Assembly (NCBI GenBank): GCA_030682715.1
Contig: JAUXNQ010000017.1
Span: forward strand, 1 to 64,000
Origin: Methylotenera sp.
Lineage (GTDB): Bacteria; Pseudomonadota; Gammaproteobacteria; Burkholderiales; Methylophilaceae
Length of the DNA: 64,000 nucleotides
Reading direction: 5' to 3'
Shown here: positions 16,165 to 46,730 of the stretch, in pieces
Numbering within the stretch: the stretch's first letter is position 1
How the letters are laid out: every line of letters begins with the position of its first letter
Position numbers and translations under genes: made by a program
The notes under the pieces: model-generated
What the model was told of the DNA's origin: nothing
What the model saw: the letters and a program-made list of their open reading frames with translations, nothing else
Databases searched by the model: none

Positions 16165-16208
16165 ACTGTTATACACTGAAATTTTTACCCTACTTTAAGG
16201 TGTTAAAC

Positions 16209-16550
16209 ATGCTGGAAATTAAGACTGTTATCCTGTTTCTCGTCACGGCGGTAGCGGAAATTTTAGGTTGTTATTTACCCTATGTCTGGCTGAAGCAGGG
16301 AGGAAGTGTCTGGTTGCTTGTTCCCGCGGCGTTAAGTCTGGCGTTATTCGCATGGTTGCTTACTCTGCACCCAACTGCTGCGGGACGTATTTATGCGGCT
16401 TATGGTGGCGCTTATATTTTTGTCGCTATTTTGTGGCTGTGGATGATCGAGGGCATCAGACCGACAACTTGGGATGTTACTGGCGCACTAGTAGCGTTGC
16501 TGGGCATGGCGATTATTATATTTGCGCCAGAACAAGGGCCGAGCGTTTGA
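16209..16550 (+). CDS. ynfA: YnfA family (UPF0060) small membrane protein
   Basis: 113 residues from the ATG at 16209, which has TAAGG eight bases upstream; an in-frame GTG at 16200 is less likely. Four transmembrane helices fill the protein. The conserved stretches [28 protein letters not shown] and [16 protein letters not shown] define the UPF0060/YnfA family, distantly related to small multidrug transporters. The role is uncertain; efflux has been proposed for some members. Its place between modA and modB is unusual, and it probably came with the GC-richer mod block. No link with molybdate transport is established. Confidence 0.92.
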
Positions 16551-16591: not shown

Positions 16592-17269
16592 ATGTTAAGC
16601 GACGGCGACTTACAAGCGATATGGCTGACCTTACGGTTGGCTGGCATCGTTACTTTAATTTTGCTACTCATCGGCACGCCGATTGCATGGTGGCTGGCGC
16701 GTACTCGCGCATGGTGGAAAGCGCCAGTGGGTGCGGTCGTGGCATTGCCGTTAGTGTTACCACCTTCGGTACTCGGTTTTTACCTGTTGCTGGCGATGGG
16801 TCCGAACGGACCCGTGGGGGCATTCACACAATCCATAGGTTTTGGCACTTTGCCGTTCACGTTCTGGGGGCTGGTGGTGGCTTCGGTATTCTATTCGCTG
16901 CCGTTTATGGTGCAACCCCTACAAACAGCATTTGAAGCGGTCGGCGACCGTCCCTTGGAAGTAGCTGCTACCTTGCGCGCATCGCCCATAGATGCTTTTT
17001 TCACCGTTGCGGTACCGTTGGCGCTCCCTGGCTTTTTGTCTGCGTCCATCTTGACGTTTGCGCATACCGTGGGCGAGTTCGGCGTAGTGCTGATGATAGG
17101 TGGCAACATCCCTGGGCAAACCCGCGTGGCCTCGGTACAGATTTACGACCATGTAGAAGCATTGGAATATATGCACGCACATCAACTTGCGGCGGTCATG
17201 CTGGTGTTCTCCTTTGTGGTGTTGCTGGTGCTGTACGTGTGGAGGCCTAGCTCAAAGAAGGGGGCATAA
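16592..17269 (+). CDS. modB: Molybdate ABC transporter permease ModB
   Basis: 225 residues with about five transmembrane helices. The EAA-loop for contact with the ATPase is LEVAATLRASPIDAFFTVAV, and the family ending AHTVGEFGVVLMIGGNIPG is present. It forms the inner-membrane pore of the ModABC importer. It begins with ATG, with only a weak ribosome site (GAAAAGAAAA). The composition is markedly GC-rich (by eye about 57%) against an AT-rich host. Its last codons carry AAAGAAGGGGG, which would have served as ribosome site for an adjacent modC; an inverted-repeat element now separates the two genes. Confidence 0.94.
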   Translation: MLSDGDLQAIWLTLRLAGIVTLILLLIGTPIAWWLARTRAWWKAPVGAVVALPLVLPPSVLGFYLLLAMGPNGPVGAFTQSIGFGTLPFTFWGLVVASVFYSLPFMVQPLQTAFEAVGDRPLEVAATLRASPIDAFFTVAVPLALPGFLSASILTFAHTVGEFGVVLMIGGNIPGQTRVASVQIYDHVEALEYMHAHQLAAVMLVFSFVVLLVLYVWRPSSKKGA

Positions 17270-17270
17270 T

Positions 17271-17426
17271 ATGAAAGACCTTTGCAAAAGTACTTCTTGC
17301 GGCGAATTGCTGCGTTGCGCGGTACTCGCAACCTCGCTGTACACCTCGTACTATCTCGGTTTCTGCGTTCCGCGCGCCTTGCACTTCATCCACAATAAGC
17401 ACTTTTGCAAAGGTCTTTATGAGTAA
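17271..17426 (+). CDS. 51-residue leader ORF spanning the inserted element, overlapping modC start
   Basis: Starts with ATG one base after the modB TAA, with AAAGAAGGGGG as ribosome site. It runs through the whole 145-bp inverted-repeat element without a stop and ends at TAA 17424-17426. The modC ATG (17419-17421) lies inside its last codons, in a different frame. The peptide (MKDLCKSTSCGELL...) resembles nothing I know and is probably not functional as a protein. Its translation may deliver ribosomes to modC by termination-reinitiation. The frame is real in sequence; use is inferred. Confidence 0.5.
   Translation: MKDLCKSTSCGELLRCAVLATSLYTSYYLGFCVPRALHFIHNKHFCKGLYE
17274..17418. mobile_element. 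145-bp MITE-like element between modB and modC
   Basis: Perfect 18-bp terminal inverted repeats, AAAGACCTTTGCAAAAGT at 17274-17291 and its complement at 17401-17418, flank a GC-rich centre. ATG occurs directly on both sides (17271-17273 and 17419-17421), consistent with a 3-bp target duplication. The ends resemble IS5-group terminal repeats containing GACCTTTGCAAA (from memory). There is no transposase, so it is a non-autonomous element. Confidence 0.8.
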
Positions 17427-18489
17427 TTTCAAGGCAAAGTTTCATGTTGAATGGCCTGGCTTTACGCTCGATGTTGATCTCAATCTGCCTGAGCGTGGCG
17501 TGACTGCGCTGTTTGGTCATTCTGGTTCTGGCAAGACTACGTTGTTACGCTGCATTGCTGGATTGGAGCGTGCAAAACAAGGTTATCTTTCGTTCAAAGG
17601 GGAGGTGTGGCAGGACGAAACCACTTGGCTACCCACGCATCAGCGACCCTTAGGTTATGTGTTTCAGGAGGCTAGTTTGTTTTCGCATTTGTCCGTACTT
17701 GGCAATCTGCGCTACGGCCTGAAGCGTACATCGGATATTCGCAACCCCGCTCTTGATCAAGCAGTAGAATTATTGGGTATCGGACATCTACTGGACAGAA
17801 AACCAGCCCACCTATCTGGTGGCGAGCGACAACGCGTCGGCATTGCGCGTGCACTGGCAGTTGCTCCACGCATTTTGCTCATGGATGAGCCGCTGGCGGC
17901 GCTTGATCTCAAACGCAAGCAGGAAATTTTGCCTTATCTTGAGCGTCTGCATGACGAACTTGATATCCCAGTGCTTTACGTCAGCCATTCCCCTGATGAA
18001 GTTGCTCGGCTGGCTGATCACATTGTCGTGATGGATGGGGGTAAGGTTGTTACCCGTGGACCTCTGGTTGAGACTATGGCGCGTCTTGATCTACCCATCC
18101 GACTAGGCCAAGATGCAGGCGTGGTGCTGGATGCTATCGTGGCGGAGCGTGACGAGACATGGCATCTTGCACGTGTAGAGTTCGCAGGTGGTAGCCTGTG
18201 GACGCGCGATCATCACTTGGCTGTAGGTCACCGAGTCCGTGTGCGCATTCAGGCGAGTGATGTGAGCCTTGCCACGCAACCACAAGAACACAGTAGCATT
18301 CTTAATCTTCTCTCTGGTGTCGTGGATGCCATCTCTGATGATGAGCATCCAGGTTTAGCGCTGGTACGGGTTCGAGTTGGAGAGTCTAACCTGATTGCCA
18401 GACTAACTAAGCGATCTGTGACAGCATTGGCAATTGTTCCTGGGCTGCCAATCTGGGTGCAGGTGAAATCTGTGGCGCTGATGGAGTAA
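17419..18489 (+). CDS. modC: Molybdate ABC transporter ATP-binding protein ModC
   Basis: 356 residues. ABC ATPase domain with Walker A GHSGSGKT (33-40), signature LSGGERQR (132-139), Walker B ILLMDE (152-157) and H-loop VSHSPDE. A C-terminal Mop/TOBE domain (about 290-354) binds molybdate and can shut the transporter when the metal is plentiful. The ATG comes immediately after the right inverted repeat of the inserted element, and no normal ribosome site precedes it (the upstream bases are GCAAAGGTCTTT; AAAGG is close). Translation probably depends on the overlapping leader ORF or on AAAGG at short spacing. GC-rich like modB. Confidence 0.95.
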   Translation: MSNFKAKFHVEWPGFTLDVDLNLPERGVTALFGHSGSGKTTLLRCIAGLERAKQGYLSFKGEVWQDETTWLPTHQRPLGYVFQEASLFSHLSVLGNLRYGLKRTSDIRNPALDQAVELLGIGHLLDRKPAHLSGGERQRVGIARALAVAPRILLMDEPLAALDLKRKQEILPYLERLHDELDIPVLYVSHSPDEVARLADHIVVMDGGKVVTRGPLVETMARLDLPIRLGQDAGVVLDAIVAERDETWHLARVEFAGGSLWTRDHHLAVGHRVRVRIQASDVSLATQPQEHSSILNLLSGVVDAISDDEHPGLALVRVRVGESNLIARLTKRSVTALAIVPGLPIWVQVKSVALME

Positions 18490-46599: not shown

Positions 46600-46730
46600 A
46601 GCCACAGAGAACACCGAGTTCACAGAGAACACCTAGCATGGAGTACAATTCTATCCTCACCCAATGAGTGATTGGCGACTATTCGCAAATGCATTGTTTT
46701 TCCTCTGTGAACTCGGTGTTCTCTGTGGCT
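46600..46730. repeat. 131-bp element with perfect 28-bp inverted repeats
   Basis: Arms 46600-46627 and 46703-46730 are perfect complements, beginning AGCCACAGAGAACACCGAGT and ending in TCTGTGGCT, with a 75-base centre. CACAGAGAACACC also recurs directly within the left side. The CACAGAGAACAC theme is a widespread intergenic repeat motif (from memory). It lies exactly at the border between the native glycogen operon and the GC-richer ODP/GGDEF-EAL block. The remaining spacer to 46885 holds no gene. Confidence 0.85.

Follow-up and report, generated by a model that had tools for sequence, protein, structure and literature searches.

How might a gene in an operon survive a mobile element that inserts on its start codon? 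This question is raised by the modB-modC junction of Methylotenera sp. (genome G000; 2.45 Mb, 67 contigs), where a palindromic 143-bp element with perfect 17-bp terminal repeats lies between the two molybdate transporter genes. We analysed the junction within a 64,000-nt stretch of one contig (the window), together with element-free junctions and related copies of the element in other genomes. The features are listed in Table 1.

A MITE on the modC start codon

A first-pass annotation of the window had described 18-bp perfect inverted repeats around a 145-bp element flanked by ATG on both sides, and had taken it for a MITE inserted on the modC start codon. The inverted repeats and the ATG on each side are present in the sequence, and exact copies of GACCTTTGCAAAAGT within the window were found at the two element ends only. 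The length of the target duplication was set on 32 distinct related copies for which both flanks were available. An exact 5-bp duplication was present in 15 of these (0.03 expected from swapped flanks), a 5-bp duplication with at most one mismatch in 23 (1.3 expected), and an exact duplication longer than 5 bp in none of the 32. Since the duplication at modC is TATGA, the element proper is 143 bp. The mobile element therefore stands, but its proposed length of 145 bp and its ATG duplication do not: a 3-bp duplication was rejected because 5 bp fits the 32 copies far better. Likewise, the repeats are perfect over 17 bp, the 18th pair being part of the duplication.

Table 1 Features of the modB-modC junction, with positions in the window.
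Feature	Position	Strand	Basis
modB, molybdate ABC transporter permease; stop TAA 17267-17269	16592-17269	+	TIGR02141, E 8.9e-72, above cut-off
Ancestral modC ribosome site AGAAGGGGG, now before the leader ORF	17256-17264	+	anti-SD duplex -10.8 kcal/mol
Left target duplication TATGA, with old start ATG 17271-17273	17270-17274	+	32 copies
Leader ORF of 51 codons across the whole element; stop TAA 17424-17426 inside modC	17271-17426	+	ORF list
Family-A MITE, 143 bp	17275-17417	+	95-97% identical near full-length relatives; empty site in G026
Left terminal inverted repeat AAGACCTTTGCAAAAGT	17275-17291	+	inverted-repeat comparison
Right terminal inverted repeat ACTTTTGCAAAGGTCTT	17401-17417	+	inverted-repeat comparison
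AAAGG in the right repeat, Shine-Dalgarno-like, 5 nt before modC ATG	17409-17413	+	duplex -3.4 kcal/mol
Right target duplication TATGA, with modC start ATG 17419-17421	17418-17422	+	32 copies
modC, molybdate ABC transporter ATPase	17419-18489	+	TIGR02142, E 1.1e-126, above cut-off

The insertion on the modC start codon was confirmed by an empty site. In genome G026, whose ModC is 96% identical to that of G000, the element is absent and the modB stop TGA is followed by one A and then by the modC ATG, which is the ancestral junction that the first-pass annotation had predicted. The same element-free arrangement of stop, one base and ATG was found in four further genomes (G169, G173, G179 and G207), with ModB 84-86% identical to that of G000. 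This junction comparison drew on 30 listed loci, with minus-strand loci left out. Copies near full length occur in G024, G007 and G009 (95-97% identical) and in G010 (84%). The proposed search for further copies and empty sites was thus rewarded with empty sites but not with a second full-length copy in G000, where the modC element is the sole full-length match. Searching plasmids with either the element or the IS end gave no match. The anatomy of the insertion and its empty site are direct observations, and the element is short and transposase-free, with terminal repeats, a target duplication, dispersed copies, an empty site and an end in common with an autonomous element. Taken singly, the insertion at modC is an ordinary MITE event.

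The parent of the MITE is likely, judging from sequence, an IS5-type element in G000. The same end as in the MITE, AAGACCTTTGCAAAAG, was found at six contig ends of this genome, and at one of them it is followed by a 353-aa ORF which matched NF033581 (E 6.9e-64) and PF01609, both above cut-off, and which encodes an IS5-type DDE transposase. This parent IS is known from one end, as the contig stops before the second. A 5-bp duplication is not known to be typical of IS5 subgroups.

Other repeats were seen in passing. The element core (17301-17391) is common to MITEs with unrelated ends in G000 (loci L002-L019) and also matches G043, G056 and G060, which represent three other families of the order. 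Conversely, three 153-bp elements in G009 (L262, L263 and L264) have the ends of the modC element but do not match its core. Elsewhere in the window, positions 46600-46730 hold a 28-bp perfect inverted repeat with arms 75 nt apart, possibly a small mobile repeat. A YnfA/UPF0060 gene lies at 16200-16550, between modA and modB.

The leader ORF and putative ribosome sites of modC

As claimed in the first-pass annotation, a 51-codon ORF now stands behind the old ribosome site, crosses the element and ends over the new start, overlapping modC by 8 nt; the upstream stop thus lies over the downstream start, as in a coupled pair. The leader ORF matched nothing in NCBIfam or Pfam at a threshold of E 0.001. 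Its open frame is not special to the modC site. Of 17 core-bearing copies, 13 have the leader frame open, so the open leader is a family trait and gives no sign of adaptation at modC. The first forward frame is open in 14 of the 17, and the leader frame was open in a fraction of 0.495 of 5000 shuffles of the element interior and in 0.256 of shuffles of the whole element.

The anti-SD duplex of the old ribosome site (-10.8 kcal/mol) was taken over the 20 nt that precede the ATG of the leader, and at the same place G026 has AAGAAAGGAGC. With this site moved away, modC had been thought to have no ribosome site nearby. However, the right repeat ends in GCAAAGGTCTT, which puts AAAGG 5 nt ahead of the modC ATG, a geometry that recurs at five other genes. 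The modC duplex is -3.4 kcal/mol with the element versus -9.1 in G026; a duplex as weak as this, or weaker, was found for 25 of the 40 ORFs in the window. The element is not tuned to the modC site: most of its frames are open, and the AAAGG ends come with it wherever it has landed. A longer ModC starting inside the element was considered and rejected, the open modC frame containing no ATG, GTG or TTG before 17419. A simple consensus scan for a promoter in the element gave no promoter-like site at 16900-17600.

We then computed RNA folds. The element RNA folded to -61.8 kcal/mol versus -35.9 (sd 3.6) for shuffles, of which none of 200 was as low. In the computed structure AAAGG is paired in the stem formed by both repeats, with 17408-17412 fully paired and 17413 paired too. 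Opening the modC start region is predicted to cost 25.0 kcal/mol with the whole element and 7.3 when folding begins at 17345, in mid-element, compared with 11.7 in G026. The leader's own start region costs 19.1 kcal/mol to open, and the leader may therefore need modB termination beside it. At four of the other start codons abutted by this family (see below), the computed cost fell from 20.5, 25.2, 32.6 and 22.8 to 6.4-12.6 kcal/mol when only the right half was folded; at the 200-bp copy next to a creatininase-family gene it changed less, from 10.2 to 7.2.

Might the insertion simply silence or weaken modC, through the hairpin, RNA cleavage or a weak ribosome site? The strong hairpin and the loss in duplex strength relative to G026 would both agree with this. 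Moreover, G000 has a second molybdate locus (contig C37, L441, 2231-5133) whose products are ModA and ModB (both above cut-off), an ATPase resembling ModC that falls below the ModC cut-off, and a Mop-domain protein, so that silencing of modC could be survivable. However, modC is intact and without a sign of decay: dN/dS against G026 is 0.071 (modB, 0.061), and its amino-acid changes, two on the G000 side, seven on the G026 side and five placed on neither, are not in excess in G000. The insertion may be recent, and too young for decay to have set in. The same geometry at bioC and folP also speaks against silencing, which we regard as unlikely. The ribosome-binding-like sequence at the end and the open frame may instead be why modC still looks intact.

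Family-A ends at other start codons

Is the geometry at modC an isolated case? Among the matches listed per genome, we counted ATG starts outside family-A ends. There were 114 end-like places, of which 89 were kept (paired or exact) and 25 that were unpaired and inexact were dropped; a recount with more loci gave 118 places and again 89 kept. A set of 69 contig stretches selected for an ATG was held apart from the end, leader and duplication counts, and 58 of these lacked a second repeat in the 400 nt upstream. Among the matches listed, an ATG that opens an ORF of 90 aa or more lay 1-5 nt outside 6 of the 89 ends and 6-19 nt outside none of the 89. ORFs with GTG or TTG start 16 and 15 nt outside two ends (L114 and L270). 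Random intergenic points (n = 66,584), drawn from the window and 72 fetched loci, had such a start at 0-5 nt in 0.81% and at 6-19 nt in 2.3% of cases, which corresponds to 0.7 (0.7-1.5 depending on the null) and 2.0 expected among 89 ends. The probability of at least six was 9e-5, rising to 0.0003 with intergenic space defined by ATG ORFs only and to 0.004 for any DNA point. The probability of none at 6-19 nt was 0.13, 0.095 and 0.036, respectively, and not significant in two of the three nulls. A looser end rule gave 7 of 87 start-abutting ends among the matches listed; the seventh (L310, G007:C1) was set aside as probable chance, being unpaired, with one mismatch and an ORF that is transporter-like on reading.

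As a control we used family B, a second MITE family of these genomes, which has the same core and ends in TAAGGAAACRCGGAATAAGT without an outward AAAGG. One of its 94 ends had a start at 0-5 nt and three of 94 at 6-19 nt. Among the matches listed, the difference between the families (6/89 versus 1/94) is marginal (one-sided Fisher p 0.051), and the family-B ends were gathered by a looser rule than those of family A, one that allowed as many as three mismatches and required no pairing. In a separate observation, 13 of the 94 family-B ends (fetched loci L002-L380) fall 20-39 nt upstream of a gene start, a zone that holds 3.4% of random intergenic points and lies just upstream of ribosome-site positions.

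An excess of ends at start codons is also what would be seen if the transposase preferred such regions, in which case it would reflect target choice and not survival. We think this improbable, as ATG occurs in only one of the 15 exact duplications (the TATGA of the modC site) and as family B is without such an excess, although it is a different transposon.

The six start-abutted genes are modC, bioC, soxZ, folP, a creatininase-family gene and a beta-CASP metallo-hydrolase, and AAAGG lies 5-9 nt before the ATG at all six. BioC matched TIGR02072 and has an empty-site relative (L387); SoxZ was matched from model position 1; the folP product, dihydropteroate synthase, matched TIGR01496 above cut-off; the creatininase-family gene, cut by the contig end, was matched from model position 2; and all 29 orthologues among the matches listed place the metallo-hydrolase ATG at the same codon. 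Comparison of start positions with relatives covered modC, bioC and the metallo-hydrolase. A co-directional ORF stops 1-25 nt before the element at five of the six sites, compared with a stop within 40 nt at 15 of 58 other ends.

Leaders are common at these sites, which is an indirect sign of coupling. An ATG ORF enters the element at all six, versus 24 of the 58 other paired ends, and extends past the right end, or to no more than 30 nt short of it, at five of the six, versus 6 of 58. This excess is partly a matter of geometry, since an insertion at a start codon leaves a second copy of that codon on the left; the left junction has an ATG at four of the six sites and at 8 of the 58 others. 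In forward 143-bp copies the entering ORF crosses in five of six non-abutting cases. Reverse 143-bp copies were crossed in both start-abutting cases (soxZ and the metallo-hydrolase) and at none of 10 other entered ends, a contrast that is only suggestive.

These leaders invite a rival explanation, along the lines of the first-pass annotation, in which modC relies only on termination-reinitiation from the 51-codon leader and AAAGG is accidental. The start-stop overlap at modC is as this would have it, and so are the ATGA overlap at soxZ (G024) and the 1-nt gap between leader stop and start at the metallo-hydrolase (G010), both in those reverse copies. However, only at these three genes does the leader's stop codon begin no more than 5 nt from the A of the following ATG, while AAAGG is suitably placed at all six. 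The leader stops 22 nt before the element end at bioC and at the creatininase-family gene; at folP it stops 225 nt before the end and no leader crosses. Coupling as the sole mechanism therefore seems to us rather doubtful.

How such insertions might survive

We consider it somewhat probable that start-codon insertions of this family survive where the element end brings a ribosome site and translation of the leader opens the hairpin. At modC, an IS5-type MITE transposed onto the start codon, and because the TATGA duplication copied the ATG, modC kept its start. By sequence, the old strong ribosome site now starts the 51-codon leader through the element, with the right end bringing AAAGG to a normal distance before the modC ATG. 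In free RNA, the computed fold locks AAAGG in the hairpin of both ends. We infer that ribosomes done with modB would translate the leader and so remove the left repeat from the stem, freeing AAAGG and the ATG. Initiation at modC might then occur by reinitiation at the overlapping ATG, by new ribosomes on AAAGG, or by both. With open frames and AAAGG ends, in-operon insertions at start codons would be unusually well tolerated, as the excess of such insertions suggests.

Bacterial MITEs with hairpins and open frames have long been known, among them Correia/NEMIS, ERIC, RPE and YPAL, and the roles given to them in the relevant passages of PMC2229807 are an open frame that joins host proteins or a hairpin that acts on the mRNA. 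ERIC/IRU of enterobacteria is similar in being a short palindrome co-transcribed with its neighbours, with a long RNA hairpin, open frames and an mRNA effect tied to ribosomes; it differs in its ends and hosts and, as those passages describe it, acts on the stability of the upstream transcript and not by supplying a start or ribosome site (PMC2229807). Correia/NEMIS of Neisseria is likewise a MITE with terminal repeats, a duplication and an RNA hairpin, and its 107-bp form has open frames, but its ends are different and RNase III processing and putative promoters are what the same account ascribes to it (PMC2229807). Rickettsia palindromic elements are palindromic repeats with an open frame that allows a host gene to survive their insertion; according to that account they enter the host protein in frame, whereas the modC leader is separate and the host protein unchanged (PMC2229807). 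MITEAba12 of Acinetobacter is IS-derived and non-autonomous with short ORFs at its ends, but it is 113 bp long with stops in six frames, and the passages on it in PMC6382973 describe no ribosome-site role. In the portions of papers covered by an open-access literature search, we found nothing on element ends that give a ribosome site to a gene hit at its start codon.

What deserves to be followed up is that these insertions recur at start codons, each time with the same AAAGG at the element end. A more general reading, which we offer tentatively, is that family-A ends are portable translation-start adaptors, with AAAGG spaced for a start codon in or next to the duplication and hidden in the hairpin until the leader is translated. 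If this is true, the family settles in tight operon junctions and turns a stop-start pair into a three-step coupled cascade. Such insertions would give natural cases of new leader ORFs made in one step and of hairpin-gated ribosome sites. They would also offer a concrete way for a mobile element to hit an in-operon start codon without killing the gene, tying the sequence of a transposon end to the places where its insertions survive.
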